Source: Stenotrophomonas aracearum (GTDB taxonomy: Bacteria > Pseudomonadota > Gammaproteobacteria > Xanthomonadales > Xanthomonadaceae). From it: 64,000 nt of DNA. How positions within the stretch are numbered: the stretch's first letter is position 1; every line of letters starts with the position of its first letter. The stretch is taken from the NCBI RefSeq assembly GCF_031834615.1, contig NZ_CP115543.1, forward strand, positions 1,127,001 to 1,191,000. The letters run 5' to 3'. The notes beneath the pieces are model-generated. The model was not told where the DNA came from. It worked only from the letters and a program-made list of their open reading frames with translations, and made no database searches. Of this stretch, positions 14,265 through 49,673 are shown piece after piece. The position numbers were made by a program, and so were the translations under genes.

Positions 14265-14278
14265 TGAATACGTATGCA
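14265..14278 (+). promoter_or_regulatory. Predicted LacI-type operator, maltodextrin regulon, copy 3 in a divergent promoter region
   Basis: TGAATACGTATGCA, 73 bases from the GH97 start on one side and 147 bases from the six-hairpin glycosidase start on the other. One site could control both directions. The remainder of the 234-base gap (14192-14425) holds two purine-rich tracts, CCTGGGAGGGGG near 14325 and AGGGAGGAAGG at 14383-14393, with no start codon at normal spacing. Confidence 0.7.
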
Positions 14279-14425
14279 AGCGGGCGGCAACCGGCGCGTC
14301 TCGCCTACCATGCAGGCAGGCACCCTGGGAGGGGGCCGCGACGACAGCGCTCCGGCACTGTTGAACCACACCGCGTGCAAGAAGGGAGGAAGGCAGACGG
14401 GCACACGCCGGTCGGCCGCTTTTCG

Positions 14426-29243: not shown

Positions 29244-30330
<1,087 letters not shown>

Positions 30331-30342
30331 AGGAGTCTGTTC

Positions 30343-30927
30343 ATGGCGGTTCCCCAAGACCCTTCACGCAGGGCAGTCGTCGCCGCGCTGGCAAGCCTGC
30401 CCTTGGGTGGCGCAGTGCCTGCCGGTGGCGAAGCGCCGGAGAACCGGATGAACGGCTCGGCGACATTGGTGGCGTACTTCTCGCGGTCGGGTAACACCCG
30501 TGTCGTAGCGGGGCTGATCCAACGTGCCTTCGGTGCAGATCTGTTCGAGATCCAGCCGGCCGTGCCGTACCCGGACGAGTACCTGGCCACGGTAGAGCAG
30601 GCACGCCAGGAACGGGACCGCGGCATCGAGCCCGCCCTTGAAGCCACGATCGCCACGATCCGCAGCTACGAGACGGTCTACCTGGGGTTCCCCATCTGGG
30701 GAGAAACCGCGCCACCGGTGATCCGATCATTTCTTTCCCGCCACGATCTTTCTGGCAAGACCCTTATTCCCTTCGTCACCCATGGGGGCTATGGCCTGGG
30801 CAGCAGCAGGGCAGTGGTCGCCCGCATGGCGCCCGAAGCGAACCTGCAGAAGGAGTTCCTGATGCAGGCCGACCAGGAGCGCCAGACGATGGAGCGTGTA
30901 AACCAGTGGCTGCAACGCAGTCGATGA
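30343..30927 (+). CDS. Flavodoxin-like protein with a possible Tat signal
   Basis: A 194-residue protein with the flavodoxin fold: FMN phosphate loop YFSRSGNTR, then VYLGFPIWGETAPP and FVTHGGYGLGSS around the isoalloxazine ring. Ahead of the domain, residues 1-30 read MAVPQDPSRRAVVAALASL..., with twin arginines (9-10) and a hydrophobic stretch, a weak Tat-type leader. If real, the FMN protein is exported folded. It lies 12 bases after one aldo-keto reductase and 15 bases before the next, so it is part of one operon. It may pass electrons to a partner or act as a quinone reductase of the WrbA/flavodoxin type; neither is proven. Confidence 0.82.
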   Translation: MAVPQDPSRRAVVAALASLPLGGAVPAGGEAPENRMNGSATLVAYFSRSGNTRVVAGLIQRAFGADLFEIQPAVPYPDEYLATVEQARQERDRGIEPALEATIATIRSYETVYLGFPIWGETAPPVIRSFLSRHDLSGKTLIPFVTHGGYGLGSSRAVVARMAPEANLQKEFLMQADQERQTMERVNQWLQRSR

Positions 30928-33187
<2,260 letters not shown>

Positions 33188-33253: not shown

Positions 33254-33322
33254 GTTGTGCCTTGCAGCATGCATTTTTTTCGTGCACTGCGACTTGCAAT
33301 GAATCGATTCGCTACTTTATGG

Positions 33323-33336
33323 TGCAATCGATTGCA
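33323..33336. promoter_or_regulatory. Predicted LacI operator, keto-glycoside regulon, copy 1
   Basis: TGCAATCGATTGCA is a perfect 14-base palindrome with central CG, 48 bases before the ATG at 33385. The same palindrome with matching flanks (GRTGCAATCGATTGCATTRCC) recurs at 41998-42011 next to the LacI gene. A weaker palindrome, GAATCGATTC at 33301-33310, lies 24 bases upstream centre to centre and may be an auxiliary site. Confidence 0.75.
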
Positions 33337-33384
33337 TTGCCCCGAATTGTTGCGTTTGATACCGGTTGGGAGGCCGGAGTGCGA

Positions 33385-34281
33385 ATGTCCGACCGTTCGA
33401 TTGGATCGATCCAAGTTTCGCGGCTCTCGCGACGGGATGCGTTGCGCATCGCCGTCGCCGGAAGCTTGGGTCTTGGCGCTTCTGGCGTGCTGCCGGCGCT
33501 GGCCGCCGCCGCGCCGCTCAAGGGCAACATCAAGCATTCGGTCGCCCGTTGGACATTCCCGCAACAGTCGGTCGCCCAACTCTGCCAGACGGTAAAAGGC
33601 ATCGGCTTCGCCGCCATCGATCTGGTCGGCCCGGAAGACTGGCCCACGTTGAAGGCGCATGGGGTGTACAGCTCCATGTGCAATGGCGCGGAACTGGGGC
33701 TGACCAAGGGCTTCGCAGGCGCCCAGTTCCACGAGGAACTGGTAGCGCGTTACACACGGCACATCGACCTCGTCGCCGATGCCGGCTATCGCAACCTCAT
33801 CTGTTTCTCCGGCAACCGCAACGGCATGGACCCGCAGGAAGGCCTGGCGCATGCCGAGGCCGGGCTCAAGCGCATCCTTGGCCATGCCGAGAAGCGCGGC
33901 GTGGTGCTGGTGATGGAGCTGCTGAACTCCCGGGTCGATCATCCCGATTATCTGTGCGACCACTCCGCATGGGGCGTGGAACTGTGCCAGCGGCTTGGTT
34001 CGGACAACTTCGGCCTGCTCTACGACATCTACCACATGCAGATCATGGAGGGCGACATCATCGCCACCATCGGTCGGGATCATGCGCATTTCAAGCATTA
34101 CCACACCGCGGGCGTACCTGGCCGACACGAGATCGGGGACCAGCAGGAACTCAATTATCCCGCCATCTGTCGCGCGATCCGCGACACCGGTTTCGATGGG
34201 TATCTGGCGCAGGAATTCAGCCCTGTGTCCGCCGATCCCGTCGGTTCGCTGCGCGAGGCGATCCGCCTCTGCGACGTCTGA
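33385..34281 (+). CDS. Tat-exported sugar isomerase/epimerase-like TIM barrel
   Basis: A 298-residue protein of the hydroxypyruvate isomerase/xylose isomerase-like superfamily. It has a Tat signal (RLSRRDALRIAVAGSLGLG, R16-R17), so it acts in the periplasm. The barrel shows metal-site segments: LVMELLNSR (Glu), GLLYDIYHMQIMEGD (Asp, His), HYHTAGVPGRHE and GYLAQEFSP (Glu). It opens the operon with the GMC dehydrogenase, 30 bases ahead of it. In related 3-keto-glycoside loci such proteins rearrange or cleave the oxidised sugar; that role is inferred here. The start at 33385 is chosen because the twin-arginine signal lies at normal distance and the operator lies upstream of it. Confidence 0.85.
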   Translation: MSDRSIGSIQVSRLSRRDALRIAVAGSLGLGASGVLPALAAAAPLKGNIKHSVARWTFPQQSVAQLCQTVKGIGFAAIDLVGPEDWPTLKAHGVYSSMCNGAELGLTKGFAGAQFHEELVARYTRHIDLVADAGYRNLICFSGNRNGMDPQEGLAHAEAGLKRILGHAEKRGVVLVMELLNSRVDHPDYLCDHSAWGVELCQRLGSDNFGLLYDIYHMQIMEGDIIATIGRDHAHFKHYHTAGVPGRHEIGDQQELNYPAICRAIRDTGFDGYLAQEFSPVSADPVGSLREAIRLCDV

Positions 34282-34311
34282 AACGATATCCACCAAGGTG
34301 AAGTAGAACCC

Positions 34312-35997
34312 ATGGCAGACAATCATTACGACGCCATCGTTGTTGGCTCGGGAATCAGTGGCGGTTGGGCGGCAAAGGAACTGACCGAGAAAGGCCTCAA
34401 GGTGCTGATGCTCGAACGCGGGCGCAACATCGAGCACGTCAAGGACTACGTCAATGCGATGAAGGAACCGTGGGATTTCCCGCATCGCAACCGGCCGACC
34501 CAGGCGATGAAGGTGGATTTCCCGGTGCTGATGCGCGATTACGGCCTGGCCGAGAACCTTGAGGGCATGTGGGCGGACGAAAAAGAATCGCCCTATGTCG
34601 AGACCAAACGCTTCGACTGGTTCCGTGGCTATCACGTGGGCGGGCGCTCGCTGATGTGGGGGCGGCAGAGCTATCGCCTGTCCGACCTGGATTTCCAGGC
34701 CAACCTCAAGGAGGGCATCGCCACCGACTGGCCGATCCGTTACGCCGACATCGCGCCGTGGTATGACCACGTGGAGAAGTTCGCCGGCATCGCCGGCACG
34801 CGCGAAGGGCTGGACGTGCTGCCGGACGGGGAGTTCCTGCCGCCGATTCCGCTCAACATCGTCGAGAAGGACGTCGCGGCGCGGATCAAGCAGGCATTTG
34901 GCGGCACCCGCCACATGATCCACTCGCGCACCGCGAACATCACCCAGCCCAAGCCGGAGCAGGGCCGCGTCAACTGCCAGTATCGCAACAAGTGCATCCT
35001 CGGCTGTCCGTTCGGCGCCTACTTCTCCACCCAGTCGGCGACGCTGCCGGCGGCGATGAAGACCGGCAACCTGACCCTGCGGCCGTTCTCGATCGTCAAG
35101 GAAGTGCTGTACGACAAGGACCGCAAGCGCGCACGGGGCGTGGAGGTCATCGATGCCGAGACCGGCCAGACCTATGAGTACACGGCGAAGGTGATCTTCC
35201 TCAACGCCTCCTCGTTCAACTCGACCTGGCTGCTGATGAACTCGGCCACCGACGTCTGGGAAGGCGGGCTGGGATCGTCGTCCGGCGAGCTCGGGCACAA
35301 CGTAATGGACCATCACTTCGGCGCAGGCGCTTCTGGTCGCGTAGAGGGTTACGACGACAAGTATTACTTCGGGCGTCGTCCCTGCGGTTTCTACATTCCG
35401 CGCTTCCGCAACGTGGCGGCCGACAAGCGCGGCTACACGCGTGGCTTCGGATACCAGGGCGGTGCCAGCCGCAACGGCTGGTCGCGCGAGATCGCCGAGC
35501 TGAACATCGGTGCCGACCTCAAGGAAGCGCTGACCCTGCCGGGCGACTGGCGGATCGGCATGACCGGGTTCGGCGAGATGCTGCCGCACCACGACAACAC
35601 AATTCGCCTTGATCCGGAACGCAAGGACAAGTGGGGGTTGCCGGTGCTGGCCATGGACGTCGCCCTGCGCGCGAACGAAAAGGCCATGCGCAAGGACATG
35701 GCCGCCGATGCCGCCGAGATGCTGGAGGCTGCCGGGGTGAAGGACGTGGAGATGCACGACAACGATTACGCCCCGGGCAAGGGCATCCACGAGATGGGCA
35801 CCGCCCGCATGGGCCGTGACCGCAAAAGCTCGGTTCTGAACCAGCACAACCAGGTCTGGGACGCGCCGAATGTCTACGTGACCGATGGCGCCTGCATGAC
35901 CTCCAGTGCCTGCGTGAATCCGTCGCTGACCTACATGGCGCTGACCGCGCGGGCAGCGGACCATGCGGTGCGCGAACTGAAAGCGGGGAACCTGTAA
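34312..35997 (+). CDS. GMC-family FAD sugar dehydrogenase, large subunit (candidate glycoside 3-dehydrogenase)
   Basis: A 561-residue flavoprotein. The FAD dinucleotide-binding motif VVGSGISGGWAAKEL opens the protein, LMLERGRN follows, and the GMC C-terminal domain has GKGIHEMGTARMG (active-site His) and SACVNPSLTYMALTAR. Cysteines at 222, 228 and 232 (C-x5-C-x3-C) match the spacing of the [3Fe-4S] ligands in the FAD glucose dehydrogenase of Burkholderia, suggesting an iron-sulfur relay. It has no signal peptide but probably leaves the cell with its Tat subunit, whose ATG shares one base with this stop codon. It would oxidise a sugar or glycoside, most likely at C3, and pass electrons to the cytochrome c encoded at 37358. 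It could also be a gluconate or sorbitol type dehydrogenase. Confidence 0.87.
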   Translation: MADNHYDAIVVGSGISGGWAAKELTEKGLKVLMLERGRNIEHVKDYVNAMKEPWDFPHRNRPTQAMKVDFPVLMRDYGLAENLEGMWADEKESPYVETKRFDWFRGYHVGGRSLMWGRQSYRLSDLDFQANLKEGIATDWPIRYADIAPWYDHVEKFAGIAGTREGLDVLPDGEFLPPIPLNIVEKDVAARIKQAFGGTRHMIHSRTANITQPKPEQGRVNCQYRNKCILGCPFGAYFSTQSATLPAAMKTGNLTLRPFSIVKEVLYDKDRKRARGVEVIDAETGQTYEYTAKVIFLNASSFNSTWLLMNSATDVWEGGLGSSSGELGHNVMDHHFGAGASGRVEGYDDKYYFGRRPCGFYIPRFRNVAADKRGYTRGFGYQGGASRNGWSREIAELNIGADLKEALTLPGDWRIGMTGFGEMLPHHDNTIRLDPERKDKWGLPVLAMDVALRANEKAMRKDMAADAAEMLEAAGVKDVEMHDNDYAPGKGIHEMGTARMGRDRKSSVLNQHNQVWDAPNVYVTDGACMTSSACVNPSLTYMALTARAADHAVRELKAGNL

Positions 35998-36569
35998 TGG
36001 ACCGTCGCGACCTCCTGAAGATGATCGTCGCCGCCACTGGCGCGGCGATGGTGGGCCTGCCTGCGCTGGCCGGTGGGAAATCGCCGGGCGCGGGGAGCGC
36101 CTCGTTCTCTGCCACCGACATCGCCACGCTGGATGAGATTGCCGAGACCATCCTGCCGCGCACGAAGACGCCGGGTGCCAAGGAAGCGGGGACCGGCGCA
36201 TTCATGGCGACCTTCGTTGCCGACTGCTACACGGACCGCCAGCAGGCTGCGTTCCATGCAGGCCTGGCGGACATCGACAAACGCGCCGGCGGCCGCTTCG
36301 TCTCGCTCGCGCCGGACGCCCGCGCCGCGCTGCTGCGCGAGTTGGATGCAGAGGCGAAGAAGCGCAATGTCGACGTCAGCTCAACCGGTGAGGTGGACGC
36401 GTCCGAGGCGACGCCGCATTACTTCACGATGATCAAGCAACTGACCATCTTCGGTTTCTTCACCTCGAAGGTGGGCGCGACCGAAGTGCTGCAGTACGTT
36501 GCGGTACCGGGTCGCTATGACGGCGACCTGGCCTATGCCCCCGGAACCCCCGCCTGGGCGACCGGCTGA
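35997..36569 (+). CDS. Gluconate 2-dehydrogenase subunit 3-like protein, Tat-exported small subunit
   Basis: A 190-residue partner of GMC dehydrogenases. It carries a very short Tat signal (MDRRDLLKMIVAATGAAMVG, R3-R4) that brings the large subunit to the periplasm by piggyback. The mature part has the family pattern TDIATLDEIAETILPRTKTPGAKEAG and QLTIFGFFTSKVGATEVLQYV. The ATG overlaps the stop codon of the large subunit by one base, so the two are made in equal amounts. The gene ends at TGATGG, overlapping a possible start for the DUF1080 gene. Confidence 0.92.
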   Translation: MDRRDLLKMIVAATGAAMVGLPALAGGKSPGAGSASFSATDIATLDEIAETILPRTKTPGAKEAGTGAFMATFVADCYTDRQQAAFHAGLADIDKRAGGRFVSLAPDARAALLRELDAEAKKRNVDVSSTGEVDASEATPHYFTMIKQLTIFGFFTSKVGATEVLQYVAVPGRYDGDLAYAPGTPAWATG

Positions 36570-36586
36570 TGGAGTGCAAAGACACG

Positions 36587-37330
36587 ATGACCCGACCCCT
36601 GTTGATGGCGGCCTGCCTGCTGGCCGCTGCCCCCGCGTTCGCGCAGTCCAGCGGCGACCCCGCACGCGATCCGACCAGGACCGAAGTGTGGACGCACGTG
36701 CCTGCGGTCGTGGCCACGCCGGTGGGCGGTGCGCCCTCCGATGCGATCGTGCTGTTCGACGGCAAGGACACCTCCGCATGGGAGTCGGAGCAGGGTGGCC
36801 GCGTGCCATGGACCGTTGCCGACGGCGCGATGACGGTGGTGCCGGGCAGCAAGGGCATCCGGACCACGCAGAAGTTCTGCGACATCCAGCTGCACGTGGA
36901 GTGGCGCACGCCCACGCAGACCCAGGGCTTCGACGGCCAGCACCGGGGCAACAGCGGCATCTTCCTGCAGGAAGTGTATGAGCTGCAGGTGCTCGACAGT
37001 TACAACAACCCGACCTATCCCAACGGGCAGGCGGCATCGCTGTACAAGCAGGCCATTCCGCTGGTGAACGCTTCGCGTGCGCCGGGGCAGTGGCAGGCCT
37101 ACGACATCATCTGGAAGGCGCCGCGCTTCTCGGCCGGAGGCGGACTTACCTCGCCCGCGCGCATCACCGTGCTGCACAACGGCGTGCTGGTGCAGGATGA
37201 CACCGTGCTGTCGGGCAAGACCGAATACATCGGCGCCCCTTCCTACCCGGTTCATGGGTGCGCACCCATCTACCTGCAGGAGCACGATTCAAAAGTCAGC
37301 TACCGCAACATCTGGGTGCGCGCGCTGTAA
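36587..37330 (+). CDS. Exported DUF1080 protein (3-keto-glycoside hydrolase/lyase type)
   Basis: A protein of about 247 residues with a Sec signal (RPLLMAACLLAAAPAFAQ). The rest is a single beta-sandwich concanavalin-like domain with family segments AIVLFDGKDTSAWES, HVEWRTP, GNSGIFLQEVYELQVLDSY and GCAPIYLQEHDSKVSYRNIWVR. DUF1080 proteins studied in Bacteroides and elsewhere cleave 3-keto-glycosides, which fits the dehydrogenase just upstream. An in-frame ATG at 36569 overlaps the previous stop codon and would add six residues; GGAG between the two favours 36587. It is the last gene of the plus-strand operon and converges on the cytochrome c gene with 27 bases between. Confidence 0.88.
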   Translation: MTRPLLMAACLLAAAPAFAQSSGDPARDPTRTEVWTHVPAVVATPVGGAPSDAIVLFDGKDTSAWESEQGGRVPWTVADGAMTVVPGSKGIRTTQKFCDIQLHVEWRTPTQTQGFDGQHRGNSGIFLQEVYELQVLDSYNNPTYPNGQAASLYKQAIPLVNASRAPGQWQAYDIIWKAPRFSAGGGLTSPARITVLHNGVLVQDDTVLSGKTEYIGAPSYPVHGCAPIYLQEHDSKVSYRNIWVRAL

Positions 37331-37357
37331 CGCTCGCGCACCCCCGGCGCCGGCTTC

Positions 37358-37654
37358 CTATTTGACGAGGAAGCTGGCGATGTCGTTGATCTCCTGCGGC
37401 GACAGCTGGGCAAACGGCGGCATCAGGCCGCCGCCCTTGGTGATCTTCTCCTTGATCTGTGCAGGCTGCAGGCGCTTGCCGATGTCGGTGAGCGCGGGGA
37501 ACGTAGGCGGAACGCCTGCGCGCTCCGCCCCGTGACACGCGACGCAGTGGGTGGCGTAAAGCTTCGCACCGGCCGCAGGATTGTCTTCGCACCACGCGGC
37601 ACTGGCCAGCGTCGACCCACAGATCAGTACAGCCACGGTCAGAATCGTTTTCAA
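37358..37654 (-). CDS. Periplasmic class I cytochrome c
   Basis: A 98-residue mono-heme cytochrome. The signal peptide (MKTILTVAVLICGSTLASA) is followed by the heme motif CVACH (C37, C40, H41) and the axial methionine M78 in GGLMPPFAQL. It is a likely electron acceptor for the GMC dehydrogenase, to be re-oxidised by the respiratory chain. It is the last gene of the minus-strand operon, 18 bases after the TIM-barrel gene, although its proposed partner is in the plus-strand operon. The shared operator would keep both halves in step. Confidence 0.93.
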   Translation of the reverse strand: MKTILTVAVLICGSTLASAAWCEDNPAAGAKLYATHCVACHGAERAGVPPTFPALTDIGKRLQPAQIKEKITKGGGLMPPFAQLSPQEINDIASFLVK

Positions 37655-37672
37655 GCAGAACTCCTTCGCGTA

Positions 37673-38527
37673 CTAGCGCTGCGCACGCGCCGTCAGGTGG
37701 GCACGCAGATAATCGGCCCCGGCCTGGATGGCCTTGGCCGGATCGTGCGGTTGGTCGTGTTCGACGATGTACCACTGCACGCCGTCCGCCGCAGCTGCGG
37801 GCAGGATCGCGTTCCAGTCCAGCACGCCTTGGCCGACAGCGGCGAAGCCACCTTCGTCTTCGGCCTCGCCCTTCGGTGCGTTGTCCTTGGCATGGACGGC
37901 GAACAGGCGGCCCTTGAATTTGCCCAGCATCACCACCGGGTCATGCCCTGAACGCTGCACCCAGGCCAGGTCGAGCTCGGTCTGCAGGTCGGGGCCGGCG
38001 GCGGCGAACAGCAGTTCAAGGCCGGTCTTGCCGTTGAAGTCGACCAGCTCGAAGTCGTGGTTGTGGTAGGCCAGGCGCATGCCCTGTGCGCGCACCCGCT
38101 TGGAGATCTGGCCCAGTTCCGTGCCCAGGGCCGTCCAGCCTGCGGCATCGGTGGGGCGATCCTTCTGGTCCAGGTACGGCACCACCAGCACGGTGTTGCC
38201 GATCGCGCGGTTGAAGGCGATGGCAGCGTCCAGGTCATTGCGCAGGTCGGCCAGCTGAACGTGCGATGAGATCGCCTTGATCGCGTAGCGGTCCAGCAGC
38301 TGCTTGAGCTCCGCCGCGCTGACGTTCTGGGTGCCCACCGTTTCCACCGCGTGCACGCCCGCGTCGTGGACGATCTTCAACTGCTGGTCAAGTGAGCCTG
38401 CATTGCGCAGCGTGTACATCTGCACCGCGATGGGCGGTTGCGCACCGGCCGGGTCGCCTGCGAAGGCGGGCAGGGCGACCATCATCATCAGCGCGAACGT
38501 TGCAGTCCTACGTGCAGCAATCTTCAT
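37673..38527 (-). CDS. Sec-exported sugar isomerase/epimerase-like TIM barrel
   Basis: A 284-residue protein with a signal peptide (FALMMMVALPAFAGDP) and an AP-endonuclease-2/xylose-isomerase-like barrel: IAVQMYTLRNAG, GVHAVETVGTQNVS, RLAYHNHDFE (metal-binding HNH), ELDLAWVQRSG, FAVHAKDN and WYIVEHDQP. The ATG at 38527 follows GAGGAC and begins the signal peptide, whereas the longer frame (to 38569) adds residues that overlap the upstream gene's ribosome-binding region. It is the second periplasmic barrel of the cluster beside the Tat-exported one, so they probably act on different steps or anomers of oxidised sugars. Confidence 0.85.
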   Translation of the reverse strand: MKIAARRTATFALMMMVALPAFAGDPAGAQPPIAVQMYTLRNAGSLDQQLKIVHDAGVHAVETVGTQNVSAAELKQLLDRYAIKAISSHVQLADLRNDLDAAIAFNRAIGNTVLVVPYLDQKDRPTDAAGWTALGTELGQISKRVRAQGMRLAYHNHDFELVDFNGKTGLELLFAAAGPDLQTELDLAWVQRSGHDPVVMLGKFKGRLFAVHAKDNAPKGEAEDEGGFAAVGQGVLDWNAILPAAAADGVQWYIVEHDQPHDPAKAIQAGADYLRAHLTARAQR

Positions 38528-38546
38528 CCGGATGTCCTCAGGGAAC

Positions 38547-39671
38547 TCAATCGATGGCGGTCCAGGCACGGGACCTGGCCGAGGCGATGACGCGGTCGAC
38601 GATCAGCGCCGAGCGCGCGCCGTCTTCAAAGGTGGGCAGGCCCTCCGGGCGTTCGCCGTGGATGGCGGCATAGGTGTCGGCGACGAACGCCTCGAAGCAG
38701 TGGCCGTAGCCCTGTGCATGCCCGGGCGGCAACACCGAGAGTCGCCGCTGCTCGGCACTGCCGGCGCCCGGGCCGCGCACGAAGATCTCCTCGCGCTGGT
38801 CGGGTCGGCCGATCCACAGCCGCTCGGCGTCTTCCTGGTTGAAGGCCACGCTGGCGTTGGCCGCGTCGATCTCGAACCAGAGGCGATTGTGGCGGCCCGC
38901 CGAGACCTGGCTGACCGTCAACGAGGCCAGCGTTCCGGCGCCCGTCTTGAACAGTGCCGCCGCCACGTCCTCGCTGGAGACCGCCTGCATCGCGCCGCTG
39001 GCGGCGGGCGTGGTGAAGATCTGTCCACCGCCCGCGCCGCGCTCGCCGATCACGGTGGCAAACGCTGCGCTGACGTCGACGAAGCGCTCACCGCTCACCC
39101 ATTCCACCAGGTCGCACCAGTGCGAGCCGATGTCGGCGAACACGCGCGAGGTGCCGCCCAGTGCCGGGTCCACGCGCCAGTTGTTGCTGGCCGGGTCCAG
39201 CAGCCAGTCCTGCAGGTAGCTGCCATGGATCAGGTGCAGCGGCCCCAGCTCGCCCTGCGCGACCCGTGCGCGCGCCTCGCGGACCACCGGGTGGTAGCGG
39301 TAGACGAACGGGACGGTGGCCACGCGCCCGCTGGAGGCGGCCAGCGCCGCCAGCACCTGGGCATCTTCCAGTGTCGTCGCCAGCGGCTTCTCGCAGATCA
39401 CGTGCTTGCCGGCTTCCAGCGCCGCCTGCGCCATGGCGCGGTGCAGGTGGTTGGGGGTGCAGACGTGCACGACCTGCACCTGCGGGTCGGCGACCACCTC
39501 GTCGATATCGCGGTAGCCACGCGGCAGATTCCACGCACGCGCCACCTCGGTGGCGCGCTCCGGCGACGAAGCGGCGACCCCGCGGACCTCCGCGCCCGCG
39601 AGCAGGGCCGCGCGGTGGTGCACCGCGCCGATCATGCCGGTGCCGACGATGGCGATTCCAAGCTTGGGCAT
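38547..39671 (-). CDS. Gfo/Idh/MocA family NAD(P) oxidoreductase
   Basis: A 374-residue cytoplasmic dehydrogenase. It has an N-terminal Rossmann fold with IAIVGTGMIGAVHH, the conserved VHVCTPNHLH strand and the family motif CEKPLATTLEDA. The C-terminal alpha/beta domain carries GSHWCDLVEWVSGE and ends with AARSALIVDRVIASA-type helices. In keto-sugar pathways such enzymes reduce 3-keto-glucose to glucose or oxidise the sugar further; the direction here is not determined. It lies between the MFS gene (12 bases upstream) and the TIM barrel (19 bases downstream). Confidence 0.9.
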   Translation of the reverse strand: MPKLGIAIVGTGMIGAVHHRAALLAGAEVRGVAASSPERATEVARAWNLPRGYRDIDEVVADPQVQVVHVCTPNHLHRAMAQAALEAGKHVICEKPLATTLEDAQVLAALAASSGRVATVPFVYRYHPVVREARARVAQGELGPLHLIHGSYLQDWLLDPASNNWRVDPALGGTSRVFADIGSHWCDLVEWVSGERFVDVSAAFATVIGERGAGGGQIFTTPAASGAMQAVSSEDVAAALFKTGAGTLASLTVSQVSAGRHNRLWFEIDAANASVAFNQEDAERLWIGRPDQREEIFVRGPGAGSAEQRRLSVLPPGHAQGYGHCFEAFVADTYAAIHGERPEGLPTFEDGARSALIVDRVIASARSRAWTAID

Positions 39672-39683
39672 CGGGGGCGGTCC

Positions 39684-40901
39684 TCAGTTCGTGGCGGGCG
39701 AGGCCGCCACCGCCGGGCGGTCGCGGAACAGCGCCAGGAAGGCGATCAGCACCACCAGCGCAACGCCGGCGGGGAACAGCCAGATCTGCTGCCAGTCCGG
39801 ACCGGCCGCCGTGGTGTAGTGCTCGACCACCGCGCCGGACAGGAACGTGCCGATCAGCATGCCCACGCCATAGGTGGCCAACGTGATGAAGCCCTGCGCG
39901 CTGCTGCGTGCGTCCGGGCCGGCATGCGCGTCGGTGTAGATCTGGCCGGTGACGAAGAAGAAGTCATAGCAGATGCCGTGCAGCACGATGCCGATCACCA
40001 GCAGCGAGAAGCCGCCACCCGCATCGCCGAACGCGAACATGACATAGCGCACCACCCACGCAGCCATGCCGACCGCCAGCATGGTCTTGACCCCCAGCCG
40101 CACGAACAGGAACGGCATGGCCAGCATCAGCAGCACTTCGGAGACCTGGCCCAGCGACTGCAGGCCGGCCGCGCCGCGCACGCCGAGGTCGTTGAGGTAG
40201 GGGTTGGTGAAGTTGTAGTAGAACGCCAGCGGGATGCAGATGGCGATGGAGGCGAGGAAGAACACCAGGTACGAGCGCGACTTCAGCAGCTTCAGCGAAT
40301 CCAGTCCCAGGACCTTTCCGAGGCCGGCATCACGCTGCTGTGCCAGCGGCGGCGTATGCGGCAGGGTGAAGGCGTACAGGCCGAGTGCCAGCGACGCCAT
40401 CGCCGCCATCTGGAAGGTCAGCTCCAGTCGATGCGCCTGTTCCCAGCCCAGCCAGCCGATCAGCACGCCGGCCACGATCCAGCCGATGCTGCCGGCCACG
40501 CGCACCGGGGGAAATTGCTTCTCAGGCGATTGCATGTGGCGCATCGCCACGCTGTTGGCCAGTGCCAGCGTGGGCATGAACAGCAGCATGTAGCCCATCA
40601 CGCAGGCGAAGAACGTGTTGAAATCCGTTGCCGTGGAGGCCAGCCACATCAGCACTGCACCGGCCAGGTGCAGTACGCCCAGGATGCGCTGCGCGGCGAA
40701 GTAGCGGTCGGCCACCAGGCCGACCAGGAATGGCGCGACGATGGCGCCGATAGACTGGCTGAGGAAGGCGGTCGCGACCTGGCTGGCGCTGGCCTTGAGC
40801 GGACCCTGCACCAGGTACGTACCCAGGGTGACGAACCAGGCGCCCCAGATGAAGAACTGCAGAAACATCATCGCGCCCAAACGCGACATGGTGTGCTTCA
40901 T
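39684..40901 (-). CDS. MFS transporter, nucleoside:H+ symporter-like, probably sugar uptake
   Basis: A 405-residue inner-membrane protein with about 12 hydrophobic segments. The N-terminus (MMFLQFFIWGAWFVTLGTYL) and the segment FLVGLVADRYFAAQRILGVLHLAG are typical of the NupG-like branch of the major facilitator superfamily, whose members often sit in sugar catabolic clusters. GGGAGGG stands before the ATG. Its place between the cytoplasmic isomerase and the Gfo/Idh gene suggests import of a keto-sugar or glycoside released in the periplasm. A nucleoside substrate is the less likely alternative. Confidence 0.88.
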   Translation of the reverse strand: MKHTMSRLGAMMFLQFFIWGAWFVTLGTYLVQGPLKASASQVATAFLSQSIGAIVAPFLVGLVADRYFAAQRILGVLHLAGAVLMWLASTATDFNTFFACVMGYMLLFMPTLALANSVAMRHMQSPEKQFPPVRVAGSIGWIVAGVLIGWLGWEQAHRLELTFQMAAMASLALGLYAFTLPHTPPLAQQRDAGLGKVLGLDSLKLLKSRSYLVFFLASIAICIPLAFYYNFTNPYLNDLGVRGAAGLQSLGQVSEVLLMLAMPFLFVRLGVKTMLAVGMAAWVVRYVMFAFGDAGGGFSLLVIGIVLHGICYDFFFVTGQIYTDAHAGPDARSSAQGFITLATYGVGMLIGTFLSGAVVEHYTTAAGPDWQQIWLFPAGVALVVLIAFLALFRDRPAVAASPATN

Positions 40902-40928
40902 GACGTGCCCTCCCGGGGCGGTAATGGC

Positions 40929-41981
40929 TCAGATTCCGAGCATGCGGCGCAGTGAGTGGGGATCGGTGCCGCCCTCGGCAAAATCGTCGAAGGCGCGTTC
41001 GGTGACGCGGATGACGTGGTCGCGCACGAAGGCGGCACCTTCACGCGCGCCGTCTTCCGGATGCTTCAGGCAGCACTCCCACTCCACCACCGCCCAGCCT
41101 GGGAAGTCGTACTGTGCGAATTTCGAGAAGATCGCCTTGAAGTCGATCTGGCCGTCGCCGAGCGAACGGAATCGCCCGGGCCGGTCGATCCAGTCCTGGT
41201 AGCCGCCATACACGCCGCTGCGCGCGCTCGGGCGGAACTCCGCGTCCTTGACGTGGAAGATGCCGATGCGCGGGTGGTAGCGGTCGATGAAGCCCAGGTA
41301 GTCGATCTGCTGCAGCAGCAGGTGGCTGGGGTCGTACAGCATCTTCGCGCGGGGATGGTGGTCGACCACCTCAAGGAAGCGCTCGAAGGTCGCACCGTCG
41401 TGCAGGTCCTCGCCCGGGTGGATCTCGAAGCACAGGTCCACGCCGCAGGCGTCGAACGCGTCGAGGATGGGGCGCCAGCGTCGGCCGAGTTCGGCGAAGG
41501 CTTCCTCCACCAGGCCCGGCGGGCGCTGTGGCCACGGATAGAGGTACGGCCAGGCCAGCGCGCCGGAGAAGGTGGCATGTGCTTTCAGCCCGAGGCGCTG
41601 GCTGGCCTTCGCGGCAAGCAGCAGCTGCTCCACCGCCCACGCCTGGCGGGCGGCGGGATCGCCGCGCTTGTCCGGTGGCGCAAAACCGTCAAACAGGCTG
41701 TCATAGGCCGGATGCACGGCGACCAGCTGCCCCTGCAGGTGGGTGGACAGCTCGGTGATCTGCAGGCCGTGTCCGGCCAGCATGCCGGCGAGGTCGTCGC
41801 AGTAGTCCTGGCTGCGCGCAGCTTCGGCCAGGTCGAACAGATGCGGCGCGCCGGTCGGCACCTGTACGCCAGAATAGCCCAGGCCGGCCGCCCAGCCGGC
41901 CAGCGTGTCCAGCCGATCAAACGGAGGTGTGTCGCTGATGAACTGCGCCAGGAACAGCGCCGGACCCTTGAGCGTCTTCAA
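40929..41981 (-). CDS. Cytoplasmic sugar phosphate isomerase/epimerase family TIM barrel
   Basis: A protein of about 350 residues without a signal peptide. It belongs to the xylose-isomerase-like superfamily: MKTLKGPALFLAQFISD at the start, LGYSGVQVPTGAP, LKAHATFSGALAWPYLYPWP, GVDLCFEIHPGEDLHDG, AKMLYDPSHLLLQQIDYLGF, GIFHVKDAEF and AVVEWECCLKHPEDGA. The metal-ligand Glu, Asp and His segments are intact. I start at the TTG at 41981; an in-frame TTG at 42002 would lie inside the operator palindrome. It is the first gene of the minus-strand operon and divergent from the LacI gene. It probably rearranges the imported keto-sugar. Confidence 0.85.
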   Translation of the reverse strand: MKTLKGPALFLAQFISDTPPFDRLDTLAGWAAGLGYSGVQVPTGAPHLFDLAEAARSQDYCDDLAGMLAGHGLQITELSTHLQGQLVAVHPAYDSLFDGFAPPDKRGDPAARQAWAVEQLLLAAKASQRLGLKAHATFSGALAWPYLYPWPQRPPGLVEEAFAELGRRWRPILDAFDACGVDLCFEIHPGEDLHDGATFERFLEVVDHHPRAKMLYDPSHLLLQQIDYLGFIDRYHPRIGIFHVKDAEFRPSARSGVYGGYQDWIDRPGRFRSLGDGQIDFKAIFSKFAQYDFPGWAVVEWECCLKHPEDGAREGAAFVRDHVIRVTERAFDDFAEGGTDPHSLRRMLGI

Positions 41982-41997
41982 TGGGATTCGCCCGCGA

Positions 41998-42011
41998 TGC
42001 AATCGATTGCA
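41998..42011. promoter_or_regulatory. Predicted LacI operator, keto-glycoside regulon, copy 2
   Basis: TGCAATCGATTGCA, identical to 33323-33336, lies in the 95-base gap between the divergent isomerase operon (17 bases away) and the LacI gene (66 bases away). A site so close to the operon start would block transcription or initiation and would also allow autoregulation of the LacI gene. Confidence 0.8.
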
Positions 42012-42076
42012 TTACCCTAGCAGGGACTTCCGGAAATCCCGTTGTGCACTGCACAGCGGCAACCACACCTGACGCC

Positions 42077-43078
42077 ATGGCCACCATCTACGACATTGCA
42101 AAACACGTGGGCGTCTCCGCCGGCACCGTATCGCGCGCGCTCTCGCGGCCCGACAAGGTGCTGCCGGCCACGCGCACGCGCATCGAACAGGCGGCCCTCG
42201 CACTCGGCTATGTGCCCAACACCGTGGCGCGTACGCTCAAGACCCAGCGCAGCGGCAAGCTGCTGGTAACCGTGCCGGACATCGCCAATCCGTTCTTCGC
42301 GCAGATCCTGCAGGGCGCCGAGGACGCGGCGCAGGCGGTGGGCTACGCCGTGCTGCTGGGCGACACCCAGCACCTTCCCGAGCGCGAGGAGCGTTACGCG
42401 CAGATGCTCCGCCGCAACGAGGCCGACGGCCTGATCGTGCTGGGCCATCGCCTGCCGCCGACCGCGCGCGAGATCGTGCAGCAGCAGGGCGTCGCTGCGC
42501 CGGTGGTCAATGGCTGCGAGTTCGACCCCGCACTGGGCATTCCCAGTGTGCACATCGACAACGCGGCTGCCGCGCGCGCGGTCATGGAGCACCTGTATGG
42601 GCTGGGGCACGAACGGATCGCGGTCGTGGGTGGGCCGCCGGACAACCCGCTGCATCAACAGCGGCTGGAAGGCGTTCGCAGCGCCGGCAAGGCACGTGGC
42701 CGCTTGCGCAGCCTGAGCGTGGTGCCGGGCGACTTCTCGGTCGAGTCCGGGCATGCCGCTGCGCATGCGCTGCTGGACGGCGCGCGCCCCACCGCGATCT
42801 TCTGCTTCAGCGACCAGATGGCGCTGGGCGCGCTGGCGGCGTGCCGGGAGCGGGGCGTGCGCGTGCCGGAAGATCTCTCGATTGTCGGCTTCGACGATCT
42901 GGCATCATCCAGCTATCTGTCGCCGCCGTTGACGACCATCCGGCAGCCGATGCGGGAGATTGGCGTGCGCGCGGTCAAGCTGCTGCTGGCCATCATCGAA
43001 GGGGTGGACGTGCCGCTGCAGCAGACGCTCGAATTCAGTTTGATGGTGCGGGGATCTACCGGGGTGTCGAAGGGCTGA
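42077..43078 (+). CDS. LacI-family repressor of the keto-glycoside cluster
   Basis: A 333-residue regulator: helix-turn-helix ATIYDIAKHVGVSAGTVSRAL, hinge with NTVARTLKTQRSG, and a sugar-binding-protein-like effector domain (LLVTVPDIANPFFAQILQGAEDAA, HIDNAAAARAVMEHLYGLGHERIAVVGGP, LSIVGFDDLASSSYLSPPLTTI). The ATG at 42077 puts the HTH at the very N-terminus, normal for LacI proteins; the frame is open to 41981 but that runs through the promoter. Divergent placement beside one copy of the TGCAATCGATTGCA palindrome makes it the likely binder. The effector is probably an intermediate of the pathway. The stop codon is 2 bases from that of the convergent aldehyde dehydrogenase gene. Confidence 0.9.
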   Translation: MATIYDIAKHVGVSAGTVSRALSRPDKVLPATRTRIEQAALALGYVPNTVARTLKTQRSGKLLVTVPDIANPFFAQILQGAEDAAQAVGYAVLLGDTQHLPEREERYAQMLRRNEADGLIVLGHRLPPTAREIVQQQGVAAPVVNGCEFDPALGIPSVHIDNAAAARAVMEHLYGLGHERIAVVGGPPDNPLHQQRLEGVRSAGKARGRLRSLSVVPGDFSVESGHAAAHALLDGARPTAIFCFSDQMALGALAACRERGVRVPEDLSIVGFDDLASSSYLSPPLTTIRQPMREIGVRAVKLLLAIIEGVDVPLQQTLEFSLMVRGSTGVSKG

Positions 43079-43080
43079 CG

Positions 43081-44463
43081 TCAGCTCCTGCGCATCAGGA
43101 TCATCTTCTCCTGGGTCATGTCGCGCATGGTGTACGGAATGCCGCCGGTGCCGTAGCCGGATTCGCGGCGGCCTGCGAACGGCATCCAGTCGGTGCGGAA
43201 CGCGGTGGGGTCGTTGATCATCACGGCCGAAGCATCCAGGCGGTTGGCGGCGCGCATCGCGATGTCGATGTCCTGCGCGAAGATGCTGGCCTGGAATGCA
43301 ACGGGCAGGGCGTTGGCGCGCGCGATGGCATCGTCCAGGTCGGCGTAACGGTATACCGCTACCACCGGACCAAAGACTTCCAATGTGGAAATGCGTGCGT
43401 CGGCGGCGGGATCGAGAAGTACCGTGGGCTGGTACGTCGTCTCTGAAAGGCGTTCGCCGCCGGTCGCCAGCGTCGCGCCACCCTTGACCGCTTCATCTAC
43501 CCACTCCGCAACCCGATCTACTTCGCGGGGCTGGATCAGCGGGCCCACTTCGGTGTCCTTCAACGTGGGATCGGCGGTGCGCAGCTTTTCCACGCGGGCG
43601 ATCAGCCGCTCGGTGAAGTCATCGGCGATGGCGTTGTGCACGAAGATGCGCTGCGTGGACACGCAGACCTGCCCGGCATGGTAGTAGCCTCCCTTCACGA
43701 CGGGCTCGATGATCTTGTCCAGGTCGGCGCTGCGGTCGACGATGGCCGGGGCCACGCCCCCGTGCTCCAGCGCAGAGCGTGCGCCATGGGCAAGCTTGGC
43801 ATGCAACGACCAGCCGACCCGTGCCGAGCCGATGAAGCTGAAGAAGGCCACGCGCTTGTCCGTCGCCAGCGCTTCGGCCAGTTCGTTGCCGTCGGGCAGG
43901 AAGGTCTGGCACCACGGTTCGGGCAGGCCCGCCTCGTGCGCAAGTGCGACGAACTCCAGGCAGGACAGGGGCGTGGCACTGGCGGGTTTGATGATGACCG
44001 GGCAGCCCACCGCAATCGCCGGCGCCACCTGGTGCACGATCAGGTTAAGCGGATGATTGAATGCCGAGATGGCGGCGACAATGCCGATCGGCTCCCTGGT
44101 GGTGAACGCCCACCGGTTCTCCGCCGCGGCCGAGAGGCCCATGGGGATTTCGCGGCCTGCAAAGTTGCGAAGCTCGTCGGCGGCGTTGTGCACGCCGTCG
44201 ATGGCGCGGGTGGTTTCCACGATGGCATCGGGCAGCGGCTTGCCGCCTTCGCGCGCGATCTGCAGGGCAAGGTGATCGCGCCTTGCGTCCATCAATGCGG
44301 CCAGGCGGCGAAGGATGGCGATGCGCTGATGGGGCGGCAACCAGCCGTCGCGGTCCTTGAAGACGCGGGCGGCGGCCTGAAGCTTGTGCTCCAGCGCTGC
44401 AGCATCGTCGGTAGCGACTTCTGCGATCTGCGCGCGGTCAAACGCCTGTACGACCTTCAACAT
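43081..44463 (-). CDS. NAD(P)-dependent aldehyde dehydrogenase
   Basis: A 460-residue member of the ALDH superfamily, oxidising an aldehyde to an acid in the cytoplasm. Visible motifs: ISAFNHPLNLIVHQVAPAIA (cofactor/active-site Asn region), KPASATPLS, FIGSARVG, general-base Glu in ALEHGGVAP, the catalytic Cys in AGQVCVSTQRIF, and EVFGPVVAVYRY near the C-terminus. The pattern is closest to lactaldehyde/phosphonoacetaldehyde-type dehydrogenases. The ATG at 44463 follows GAGGAG; the frame opens 36 bases earlier inside the preceding gene's tail. It is the second gene of an operon with the ThDP enzyme 26 bases upstream, so its aldehyde may come from that enzyme. Confidence 0.9.
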   Translation of the reverse strand: MLKVVQAFDRAQIAEVATDDAAALEHKLQAAARVFKDRDGWLPPHQRIAILRRLAALMDARRDHLALQIAREGGKPLPDAIVETTRAIDGVHNAADELRNFAGREIPMGLSAAAENRWAFTTREPIGIVAAISAFNHPLNLIVHQVAPAIAVGCPVIIKPASATPLSCLEFVALAHEAGLPEPWCQTFLPDGNELAEALATDKRVAFFSFIGSARVGWSLHAKLAHGARSALEHGGVAPAIVDRSADLDKIIEPVVKGGYYHAGQVCVSTQRIFVHNAIADDFTERLIARVEKLRTADPTLKDTEVGPLIQPREVDRVAEWVDEAVKGGATLATGGERLSETTYQPTVLLDPAADARISTLEVFGPVVAVYRYADLDDAIARANALPVAFQASIFAQDIDIAMRAANRLDASAVMINDPTAFRTDWMPFAGRRESGYGTGGIPYTMRDMTQEKMILMRRS

Positions 44464-44489
44464 GGTGGAGCTCCTCGAAACGGTTTGGC

Positions 44490-46145
44490 CTACCGGCATT
44501 CAACGTCGGGCGTGCGGTTGCGCAGCTCGTCGACCAGTACGCGGGTATTTTCGGAATAGTCGATGGGCACGTCGATCAGATGCACGCCGCCACCGGCGAA
44601 GGCGGCTTCAATGGTAGGCACAAGCTCGGCGACCGCGCTCACCCGTGAGCCCTTCGCACCATAGGCCTCGGCATAGCGCACGAAATCGGGATTGCCAAAA
44701 CGCATGCCGAAATCCTCGAACCCATCGACCGCCTGCTTCCAGCGGATCATGCCGTAGGCGCTGTCATTGAGGATCACCACAACCAGGTTCAGTCCCAGTC
44801 GCACGGCGGTTTCCATTTCCTGCGAGTTCATCATGAAGCCGCCGTCCCCGCATACCGCCATGACACGGCGCTGCGGGTACAGCATCGACGCCATCATCGC
44901 AGAGGGCAGGCCGGCGCCCATGGTGGCCAGGGCGTTGTCCAGCAGCAGCGTATTGGCCACGTGGGTGCGGTAGTTGCGCGCGAACCAGATCTTGTACATG
45001 CCGTTGTCCAGGCACACGATGCCATCGTCGGGCATCACCTCACGCACGTCGTGCACCAGGCGCTGCGGGGTGACCGGAAAGCGGTCCTCCTCGGCGCGGT
45101 CGTTGAGACGGGTGAGAATCTTCTGGCGCAGCTCGGTCATCCCCTCGTCGGGCGACAGTTTGCCCTCCAACTGCGCGGCCAGCGCCTCCACTGCGCTGCC
45201 GACATCACCGATCACTTCGATGTCAGGGTGGTACACCTGTTCGACCGTCGCCGACTGGAAGCTGAGGTGGATGACCTTGGGGCCGCCGGCGTCCTTCATC
45301 AGGAATGGCGGCTTCTCGATCGTGTCGTGGCCGATCGCCAGGATCACGTCCGCGCGTGCAATGGCTTCGTGCACATAGTCGCCTTCGGAGAGCGCGGCAG
45401 TGCCCATGTACAGGTTCGAGCCACCGGTGACGGCACCCTTGCCCATCTGCGTATTGAAGAAGGGCAGGCGGGTGCGGCCCACGAAGCTGGACAGCGCGTC
45501 AGCCAGATGCGGTCGGCTGCAGGCAGCACCGATCATCACCAGTGGACGCTTTGCAGCCAGCAGCGCCGCGGCCGCCCGTTCGAGCGCGGCGGGGTGGGCG
45601 AGCGGGCGTTCCAGCGGATGCACCGGAACGACGGCGACGTCCTTTACCTCTTCGCCGGCGATGTCTTCCGGCAGCTCCAGATGGACCGGCCCGGGCCGGT
45701 CTTCCATGGCGACGCGGAACGCATCACGCACCATGCTGGGGAGCGCCTCCGCATTGACGATCTGCCGCGTCATCTTGGTCAACGGCTTCATCGAAGCAAC
45801 GATGTCCACGATCTGGAAGCGTGCCTGCTTGGCGCTCATCACTGCCTTCTGGCCGGTGATGAGGATCATCGGCATAGCGCCGAGATGGGCATAGGCTGCA
45901 CCGGTGGAGAAATTCAGAGCGCCCGGCCCCAGCGTGGCCAGGCAGACACCGGGACGCCCGGTAAGTCGCCCATGCGTGGCGGCCATGAACGCGGCAGCCT
46001 GCTCATGCCGGGTCAGCACCAGTTCGATCCGCGAGGTTCGCAGCGCTTCGAGGAAGTCGAGGTTTTCCTCGCCGGGGACGCCGAAAATCCGATCGACACC
46101 TTCATTCTCAAGCGCTTCAACCAACAGGGCAGCACCGTTGCGCAT
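44490..46145 (-). CDS. ThDP-dependent acetolactate synthase-like enzyme, large subunit type
   Basis: A 551-residue thiamine diphosphate enzyme. The N-terminal domain has FGVPGEENLDFLEAL and the catalytic Glu in LTRHEQAAAFMA; the central domain has PLVMIGAACSRPHL; the C-terminal ThDP site runs from GDGGFMMNSQEMETA to NDSAYGMIRWKQ. The motifs are those of acetolactate synthase without a regulatory ilvN-type partner nearby, so a catabolic role is likelier than branched-chain amino acid synthesis. The ATG at 46145 is preceded by AGGA; the one at 46160 is an alternative. Pairing with an aldehyde dehydrogenase hints at a decarboxylation-oxidation sequence. The true substrate is not known. Confidence 0.85.
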   Translation of the reverse strand: MRNGAALLVEALENEGVDRIFGVPGEENLDFLEALRTSRIELVLTRHEQAAAFMAATHGRLTGRPGVCLATLGPGALNFSTGAAYAHLGAMPMILITGQKAVMSAKQARFQIVDIVASMKPLTKMTRQIVNAEALPSMVRDAFRVAMEDRPGPVHLELPEDIAGEEVKDVAVVPVHPLERPLAHPAALERAAAALLAAKRPLVMIGAACSRPHLADALSSFVGRTRLPFFNTQMGKGAVTGGSNLYMGTAALSEGDYVHEAIARADVILAIGHDTIEKPPFLMKDAGGPKVIHLSFQSATVEQVYHPDIEVIGDVGSAVEALAAQLEGKLSPDEGMTELRQKILTRLNDRAEEDRFPVTPQRLVHDVREVMPDDGIVCLDNGMYKIWFARNYRTHVANTLLLDNALATMGAGLPSAMMASMLYPQRRVMAVCGDGGFMMNSQEMETAVRLGLNLVVVILNDSAYGMIRWKQAVDGFEDFGMRFGNPDFVRYAEAYGAKGSRVSAVAELVPTIEAAFAGGGVHLIDVPIDYSENTRVLVDELRNRTPDVECR

Positions 46146-46247
46146 CGTTCGGTTCCTCATGGATGGAGTCGTACACACTGCAAGCCACTTCGATGCTAGC
46201 AGGCACGCACTACCGCATCCCTTCACGCACGCCCGGTGCAGCCGCAA

Positions 46248-49200: not shown

Positions 49201-49673
49201 AGCGGATCGTTGTAACTGGTGTTGGCAATGCGCACGTTTCCCGCCGTGACGCCGGCCAGGCGCCCGTTGGTGGTGCCGATGTTGCCACCGTTGACGATGA
49301 TGCTGCCGCCGTCCGCGAACAGGGCGGCGCCGCGGTTCGTGAACACGTTCAACCCATTTGGCGCTGCGATCGTGCCGTTGGTAGCGTGCAGGCCACGACT
49401 GTTGCCGGTGCGCACGACAATCGCACCGGGCGATGCGCCGGCCTGCATGTCCAGCACCACATCGCCCCCGTTGGCGAGTACGCCATCGGTGGCGCCGGCG
49501 CTGGTGTCGATGGTGGTGTTGCCCACGACCGTGGTGGTGCCCGTGGTGGCGGTGAGCGTCGTGGTGCGGGCGCCGGGCCCCACAGTGGCCTGTGCGGCGC
49601 ATTCTTCGACCAGGCAGGCGTGGCCGAGTGCGAGCGCGATGCTGGTGGCGAGGGCGTGTCGAATCAGGTTCAT
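46248..49673 (-). CDS. Autotransporter with Pro-rich linker
   Basis: A 1,141-residue type Va secretion protein. The signal peptide is MNLIRHALATSIALALGHA. The passenger (about 25-715) is rich in Gly, Asn, Thr and Ser, with short repeated strands typical of a beta-helix (GGSIIVNGGNIGTTNG, DGGANAAPLSD). Residues of about 720-812 form a striking linker of alternating Pro with Asp, Glu, Thr and Val (coding about 47230-47510). The C-terminal 330 residues form the beta-barrel, ending in MRWNW with the terminal aromatic. The passenger function is not evident; adhesion or biofilm roles are common for the family. It is divergent from the larger autotransporter at 49892, with 218 bases between. Confidence 0.9.
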   Translation of the reverse strand: MNLIRHALATSIALALGHACLVEECAAQATVGPGARTTTLTATTGTTTVVGNTTIDTSAGATDGVLANGGDVVLDMQAGASPGAIVVRTGNSRGLHATNGTIAAPNGLNVFTNRGAALFADGGSIIVNGGNIGTTNGRLAGVTAGNVRIANTSYNDPLLAPGGGDGVGVEGTGRAEIAGGNRLFVGGATNRVGLGVQGPSASIAVSGALPITFQNNGALGIYLYGGGQLQASAPIALTFTGTSSVGLTVDGGANAAPLSDLSMNFASTVTTSSSGTAVVATNGGSASLNHLVVSGPGVGLGAWVRSGSALTLTGGSQVTVSSNNNGQSYAFSPGPTSSMATTTIFGSVSGASQRAGALVQGGTLNSTGTTWSNPTANGYGLYAGYNGSVPSTITLSGDTVTTTGTRGTTLQTYNNAQVAATNSSLRNDNGLVAIYQWSYNGGAGQVTRDNTIALVNSTVTTTGSAYGLYSNNASGGFAHAVSLQGGSLASDRWAIIAEGPLLFSASDGARVAGVQGLLSAEGSSGPALPTLVQLNADRSVLQGLAEADSASQANIALANQSQWTGAAWNITNVDVDATSSWIIPETSTVSQLVTNNGRIAFTPMTGDLYKRLYTGSYMGGSGSVFALNTYLGEDDSPTDQLILEGGSASGQSLLEFTNTGGPGALTRGDGIRVVVALDGATSAPNAFTQAVALLAGPYNYRLYRGGDTPGTGDDWFLRSALDCSDPSAPSPPCPAPTPTPPDPVPPTPDPPTPVPPPPEPEPPAPPAPDPAPDPIPDPEPPPIPVPPAPTPTPPTPPDPPEPGPEPVPDYRAEVSLYTALPAIALRYGWATLGNLHERVGEQEQLRARADLRGDDYFNGAWVRVIGENGDAEGRRRGVYEGAPRYDYDILAIQAGTDAYAVERENGLRDHAGFYLGQGRMRSDVIHYDGNLAGRNEVRATSLGLYWTRYWEEGQYLDAVWQGSWGKGKSRSSNGLLLDRDTFGWGVSLEGGYPFRQDGNDTRVFEPQAQVIYQRIDKDSNADPAAMIRFDDMDSLAARLGLRWADTWTLEPTDNGIRRLFSGWLRLNVWHEFRGQPVTEFSSAEGYVPFKADLQGTWWQLNAGMTWQLGASTSTYANVGYQKSFNRTFDAWDAKVGMRWNW

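Follow-up and report, generated by a model that had tools for sequence, protein, structure and literature searches.

Ten intact genes at positions 33301-43078 of a 64,000-nucleotide stretch of the Stenotrophomonas aracearum genome (NZ_CP115543.1, 1,127,001 to 1,191,000; this whole stretch is called the window) appear to encode an oxidative, largely non-hydrolytic breakdown pathway for small O-glycosides under the control of a LacI-family protein, a reading to which we assign a probability of about 0.8. It draws directly on gene content, conservation, conserved residues, leader sequences and a paired palindrome; every reaction, the compound carried, regulation by the LacI protein and the inducer are predicted from these. 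The outline of this pathway has been described for Caulobacter, Halomonas and Agrobacterium, and the window holds a further well-preserved member. Added here are the paired palindrome, the assignment of two barrel enzymes, a probable split between compartments, a swap of carriers and, as an unassigned step, a barrel protein with a twin-arginine translocation (Tat) signal. The parts, identified by Pfam profiles or by reading of the frames (none of the ten contains an internal stop), were as follows.

33323-33336, operator-like palindrome TGCAATCGATTGCA, exact, 48 bases ahead of the Tat barrel start codon
33385-34281, plus strand, Tat-exported xylose-isomerase-like TIM barrel (PF01261, Tat signal)
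34312-35997, plus strand, GMC flavoprotein, predicted catalytic subunit of a glycoside 3-dehydrogenase (PF05199/PF00732)
35997-36569, plus strand, small hitchhiker subunit of the dehydrogenase, with a Tat signal (PF13618, 116.6 bits, cut-off 23.4; MDRRDLLK leader)
36569-37330, plus strand, secreted DUF1080 protein (PF06439, 147.7 bits against a Pfam gathering cut-off of 26.8)
37358-37654, minus strand, small secreted cytochrome c (PF13442/PF00034; 98 residues, CVACH after the leader; TTG start assumed)
37673-38527, minus strand, secreted TIM barrel, homologue of AtOGE (PF01261)
38547-39671, minus strand, Gfo/Idh/MocA enzyme (PF01408)
39684-40901, minus strand, major facilitator superfamily (MFS) carrier of the Nuc_H_symport family (PF03825, 386.7 bits)
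40929-41981, minus strand, hydratase-type barrel in which no leader was seen (PF01261; TTG start chosen to match 8ro4)
41998-42011, second operator-like palindrome, an exact copy, 16 bases before the start codon of the hydratase gene and between the hydratase and LacI genes
42077-43078, plus strand, LacI-family repressor, predicted regulator of both operons (PF00356 and PF13377)

The plus-strand operon runs in the order Tat barrel, GMC protein, PF13618 subunit and DUF1080 protein, with one-base overlaps between the GMC and Tat-subunit frames and between the Tat-subunit and DUF1080 frames. The minus-strand operon converges with it and reads hydratase-type barrel, MFS carrier, Gfo enzyme, secreted barrel and cytochrome c; the LacI-family gene is divergent from this operon. 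Terminator-like sites numbered 2, below the 5.1 expected from shuffles. An initial annotation of this DNA had named these parts and placed them in two operons facing each other; all of them, the cytochrome included, were found by Pfam or frame reading, and the gene coordinates and strands agree with the facing arrangement.

The genome-neighborhood search for the same gene set that had been proposed there was performed with the GMC protein in named genomes. At least 597 stretches matched, at least 591 of them encoding a relative. The best 80 loci were retained; they cover GMC identities of 72% and above, with flanks that reach at most about 10 kb to either side of the GMC gene. By record title, 32 of the 80 loci belong to Xanthomonadaceae (Stenotrophomonas, Xanthomonas, Pseudoxanthomonas, Lysobacter and Luteimonas). 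The set proved to be conserved: nine of the ten genes keep their order and orientation at all 32 of these loci among the best 80, and the cytochrome gene is present at 28. The genes next to the cluster are not conserved. In addition, 61 genomes of the window's genus, taken from a larger group, were compared. The DUF1080 gene was found in 41, and the secreted barrel and the GMC protein (94-100% identity) in the same 41; the remaining 20 lack both DUF1080 and the secreted barrel, and among them 4 show remote GMC matches only. Because the GMC protein, DUF1080 and the secreted barrel co-occur in the same 41 of 61 genomes, the grouping of the ten genes goes beyond chance, and they form one conserved unit.

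The two operons are linked by TGCAATCGATTGCA, a perfect 14-bp palindrome that stands in one copy ahead of each. In the 4.33-Mb genome these two exact sites are the only ones and no further site occurs at one mismatch, against 0.003 exact sites and 0.18 at one mismatch or better expected from base composition. Each of the 41 cluster-bearing genomes of the genus has exactly two copies of the palindrome, and 19 of the 61 have none; the one genome with a single copy is 83% complete, and DUF1080 and the secreted barrel were not found in it. Both promoters carry the palindrome with two mismatches or fewer at all 32 Xanthomonadaceae loci, and at 27 of them it is exact at both. Its core has the AANCGNTT form, which is known for LacI-family operators. 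The palindrome pair was absent from the features of the initial annotation, and the suggestion made there of one predicted repressor gains support from identical palindromes at both operons that are found nowhere else in the genome. Both operons are thus probably under one repressor acting through the two sites, and the LacI protein at 42077-43078 is the predicted regulator. The pair would also serve as a ready reporter for the natural inducer, and hence for the substrate.

The window GMC protein shares 75.6% identity with its counterpart at an Agrobacterium locus (L055) and 80.0% with that of Vreelandella titanicae BH1 (L037). A CX5CX3C motif is present in the GMC protein at all of the best 80 loci and corresponds to C222, C228 and C232 in the window. 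A site like this holds the 3Fe-4S cluster of the Burkholderia glucose dehydrogenase (PMC6719666); an iron-sulfur site is predicted from the motif in the window protein. The marks of a glycoside 3-dehydrogenase of the direct-electron-transfer flavin adenine dinucleotide type (GlycDH/LacABC) were found together, namely a GMC protein with CX5CX3C, an adjacent Tat-signal PF13618 partner and a cytochrome c gene. A search of the PDB with the Tat subunit gave no match. It is probable that the GMC protein is the catalytic subunit of such an enzyme, and cytochrome c is the likely electron acceptor here. Elsewhere in the genome, outside the window, a further PF13618 subunit (2242361-2242825) is encoded next to another GMC gene (2242937-2244622), whose product is 27% identical to the window GMC protein and represents another exported flavoprotein dehydrogenase.

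The secreted barrel matches 8bvk, the O-glycoside beta-eliminase (OGE) AtOGE, with an E value of 7.5e-92. In an alignment of 24 rows, consisting of the window and 23 of the 74 loci with an OGE match, E62, H89, H155, H157, D186, H212 and E256 are invariant in every row. The metal ligands and catalytic His of AtOGE (E39, H66, H132, H134, D163, H189 and E233), seven residues named by Bitter et al. 2023 (PMC10628242), are all kept in 24 of 24 rows. OGE homologues occur at 74 of the 80 loci, at 55 of them with at least 45% identity. These results suggest that the secreted barrel is probably the bond-cleaving O-glycoside beta-eliminase homologue. The hydratase-type barrel matches 8ro4 over its full length (E 9.4e-179, chain residues 1-349 of 349) and is a probable cytoplasmic 2-hydroxy-3-keto-glucal hydratase homologue. 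Three isomerase-type barrels had been annotated at first; the three barrels were found, and for these two the isomerase-type label falls short, one being a probable eliminase and the other a probable hydratase by their matches to 8bvk and 8ro4.

In the Tat barrel, the twin arginine and E178, D214, H217, H240, R247 and E277 are invariant in 25 aligned rows. The nearest folds are 3ngf and 1k77, followed by 6wn6, the E. coli 3-keto-D-glucoside 4-epimerase YcjR, and the fold and the invariant residues fit the ketose-epimerase fold and the E/D/H/E metal set of YcjR, but this metal set is also common to ketose 3-epimerases and hydroxypyruvate isomerase. The name YcjR was not adopted for the Tat barrel, 3ngf and 1k77 scoring higher. 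From its epimerase-like invariant residues the protein is possibly a keto-sugar epimerase; the narrower proposal that it is a periplasmic 3-keto-glycoside epimerase acting at C4 or C2, the carbons flanking the ketone, is tentative and rather unlikely. If that proposal were true, the Tat barrel would turn 3-keto-galactosides, 3-keto-mannosides and other isomers into 3-keto-glucosides, so that one eliminase, carrier, hydratase and reductase could serve many glycosides. It would also bear on the fate of 3-ketogalactose, which PMC9007349 leaves unknown.

The DUF1080 gene is the only PF06439 match in the genome, and DUF1080 matches occur at 67 of the 80 loci. The closest solved relative of its product is 4qhz, which has no assigned function. 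In a fold comparison based on a predicted model with weak stretches (mean predicted local distance difference test score 72.6), relatives are titled 3-keto-glycoside eliminase/hydratase (9fbe and 8rr2) or 3-keto-2-hydroxy-glucal hydratase (8tda and 8v31). BT2157 (3osd) is another solved DUF1080 enzyme. The protein is a probable 3-keto-glycoside eliminase/hydratase or hydrolase. Since its fold relatives are titled eliminase/hydratase or hydratase, what has been called hydrolysis by DUF1080 may be elimination followed by hydration.

Within the 32 Xanthomonadaceae loci the Gfo protein keeps 83% identity or more; against the Gfo matches at the remaining loci it has only 27-34%, a drop that suggests an exchange of the reductase. 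Its scores against the models for the BT_2158/BT_2159 glycoside 3-dehydrogenases, 39.1 bits for NF058561 (cut-off 750) and 48.5 bits for NF058563 (cut-off 650), fall below the cut-offs. It is a probable cytoplasmic 3-keto-glucose reductase. The MFS carrier was matched at 58 of the 80 loci. At all six Rhodobacteraceae loci, all seven Rhizobiaceae loci and one Halomonad locus it is missing, and an ATP-binding cassette (ABC) ATPase and a binding protein are present; adjacency of the ABC genes was read for L041 and L055.

In the window, leaders were read on the OGE homologue, the DUF1080 protein, the Tat barrel and the Tat subunit, and none on the hydratase or the Gfo enzyme. Among homologues, a leader score that is a crude measure of hydrophobicity, with some frames misread (shortest 9, 0 and 14 residues for the Tat barrel, hydratase and MFS carrier), was passed by 67 of 74 OGE, 65 of 66 DUF1080, 60 of 68 Tat barrel and 70 of 80 Tat-subunit proteins. 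The twin arginine is present in 65 of 68 Tat barrels and in 80 of 80 Tat subunits. In 15 selected loci that were read, the catalytic domain stands at the very start of the hydratase and Gfo proteins, and a leader was seen on the Agrobacterium OGE. The apparent site of oxidation and cleavage is the periplasm, and that of hydration and reduction the cytoplasm.

In the proposed pathway, a glycoside would enter the periplasm, where the GMC subunit, exported by its Tat partner, would oxidize the sugar at C3 and electrons would pass from the GMC iron-sulfur site to cytochrome c. The secreted OGE homologue, with DUF1080 as a second cleaving or hydrating enzyme, would release the aglycone and leave 2-hydroxy-3-keto-glucal or 3-keto-glucose. 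The MFS carrier would import 2-hydroxy-3-keto-glucal or, if DUF1080 hydrates first, 3-keto-glucose. In the cytoplasm, the hydratase would yield 3-keto-glucose and the Gfo enzyme would reduce it to glucose; the Tat barrel would probably epimerize or isomerize a keto-sugar in the periplasm. The initial annotation had likewise proposed a 3-keto-glycoside pathway in which oxidation in the periplasm supplies a cytochrome and cleavage, too, takes place outside the cytoplasm, and homology, export signals and the shared operator-like sites speak for it. The cluster would represent a compact, apparently single-regulator route of oxidation, elimination, hydration and reduction of glycosides in widespread, easily grown bacteria. 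It opens three points to testing: the identity of the compound that passes the inner membrane, the reason for keeping two secreted cleaving enzymes together, and the role of the Tat barrel.

Related clusters have been published. In Price et al. 2022 (PMC9007349), lacABC was required for lactose use in Caulobacter crescentus, the DUF1080 gene CCNA_01705 was important, and genes upstream of lacB for a transporter, two epimerases and a reductase mattered too; similar clusters were noted in Halomonas (Vreelandella) titanicae BH1 and others, and periplasmic hydrolysis of 3'-ketolactose by the DUF1080 protein was proposed. The window resembles these clusters in bringing together a GMC complex, a secreted DUF1080 protein, a transporter, sugar epimerases and a reductase, and the BH1 locus has homologues of nine of its ten genes, the cytochrome excepted. 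In contrast to the window, the BH1 eliminase homologue belongs to the GMC operon, the Gfo match reaches only 31%, and the vicinity of the BH1 GMC gene yielded no cytochrome gene. Bitter et al. 2023 describe an Agrobacterium GlycDH-OGE-HYD-Gfo operon that varies with distance, with the eliminase assayed and preliminary evidence for the hydratase (PMC10628242). The order of chemistry in that GlycDH-AtOGE-AtHYD-Gfo operon, namely oxidation, elimination, hydration and reduction, is the same as that proposed here. At seven Rhizobiaceae loci, the GMC (75-76%), OGE (54-57%) and hydratase (70-72%) proteins are close to those of the window, and a Tat subunit is present together with a cytochrome c gene like the one directly after the Tat subunit in L055. 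Unlike the window, these loci have no DUF1080 or Tat barrel match within the flank, ABC genes in place of MFS, and a Gfo protein of 27-29% identity. Judged from gene content, we infer that they correspond to the published Agrobacterium operon.

The initial suggestion of a distinct variant did not hold, because much the same gene set, in other orders, appears in PMC9007349 and PMC10628242. The word 'periplasm' was not found in the available part of PMC10628242. No paper joining Stenotrophomonas with glucoside 3-dehydrogenase was found in a search that left subscription journals mostly outside, which is weak evidence of absence. Among papers rich in related terms, subscription journals again mostly outside, none was found that joined '2-hydroxy-3-keto' and 'periplasm'. 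Work from 2024 reportedly deals with an 'alternative broad-specificity pathway for glycan breakdown'.

The division of labor between the two secreted cleaving enzymes could be the reverse of that proposed. DUF1080 would then do the main cleavage, the natural substrate would be lactose or another galactoside, as proposed for Caulobacter, and the OGE homologue would be a side route. The importance of CCNA_01705 for lactose use (PMC9007349), the presence of DUF1080 at 67 of 80 loci and the eliminase/hydratase titles of its solved relatives all fit this reading. However, OGE homologues are at 74 of the 80 loci, mostly at 45% identity or more as given above, and AtOGE is fast on 3-keto-beta-glucosides (PMC10628242). 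All seven Rhizobiaceae loci have an OGE but no DUF1080 match within the flank, and the titles of 8tda and 8v31 suggest that DUF1080 could be mainly a periplasmic hydratase. We regard a leading role for DUF1080 as somewhat unlikely.

A very improbable alternative is a pathway for levoglucosan or another 1,6-anhydrosugar, with uptake by the MFS carrier, cytoplasmic oxidation of levoglucosan by the Gfo enzyme, and elimination and hydration by the barrels. In NCBIfam, the Gfo protein does match levoglucosan dehydrogenase (NF052479) best, and chain 6a3f, which we take to be levoglucosan dehydrogenase-like, is among its best PDB matches. The score of 180.6 bits nevertheless lies below the family cut-off of 650 bits, for which this pathway was set aside; moreover, an exported flavoprotein 3-dehydrogenase is already part of the cluster, and the eliminase homologue there is secreted. 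It is still harder to credit that the GMC complex is a gluconate 2-dehydrogenase or other simple sugar or polyol dehydrogenase with unrelated neighbors. The family PF13618 does take its name from gluconate 2-dehydrogenase, and among solved structures the GMC protein matches glucose and fructose dehydrogenases best. These structures are distant, however (E about 1e-32), compared with the 75.6% identical Agrobacterium homologue, and strict co-inheritance with the eliminase and DUF1080 speaks against unrelated neighbors. This reading was set aside because that homologue lies in an operon of GlycDH make-up (L055).

Several points weigh against the pathway proposed here, the oxidative and largely non-hydrolytic one. 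A consensus promoter scan of the cluster found no promoter, and no receptor, porin or glycosidase was found in it. Four of the 32 Xanthomonadaceae loci lack the cytochrome, and at most loci outside Xanthomonadaceae and Rhizobiaceae no small leader-bearing CXXCH frame was found near the GMC gene. The leader score was also passed by 34 of 69 Gfo and 18 of 69 hydratase proteins; because it is this unspecific, the split between compartments rests on reading of the sequences. Likewise, the role of the Gfo enzyme rests on its position, because its identity to Gfo proteins from loci outside Xanthomonadaceae is no more than 27-34%. Finally, the OGE homologue and DUF1080 are two secreted enzymes for one bond type, which the pathway leaves unexplained; a split of labor by anomer or by sugar is a guess.

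Only one of the 80 loci, L028 of Pseudoxanthomonas sangjuensis, encodes a twin-arginine protein (13088-15589) that matches GH31 and melibiase weakly; its gene lies between DUF1080 and the OGE homologue, at the place where the cytochrome is missing. In L032-L034, where the cytochrome is missing too, a longer gap is found at that place.

The genes flanking the cluster in the window were considered as parts of the pathway and rejected. Three aldo-keto reductase genes lie close together just before it (29311-33187, plus strand). The product of the third (31949-33187) carries a twin-arginine leader with a lipobox-like stretch at its end. At 31 Xanthomonadaceae loci nothing matched it above 60 bits; the remaining one of the 32, L023, has a 57% match. 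On the other side, an aldehyde dehydrogenase gene (43081-44499), without a match at any of the 32 loci, adjoins a gene for a thiamine-diphosphate enzyme (together 43081-46247, minus strand). These genes are followed by an autotransporter gene (46248-49673, minus strand) encoding 1141 residues (PF03797 and PF18883).

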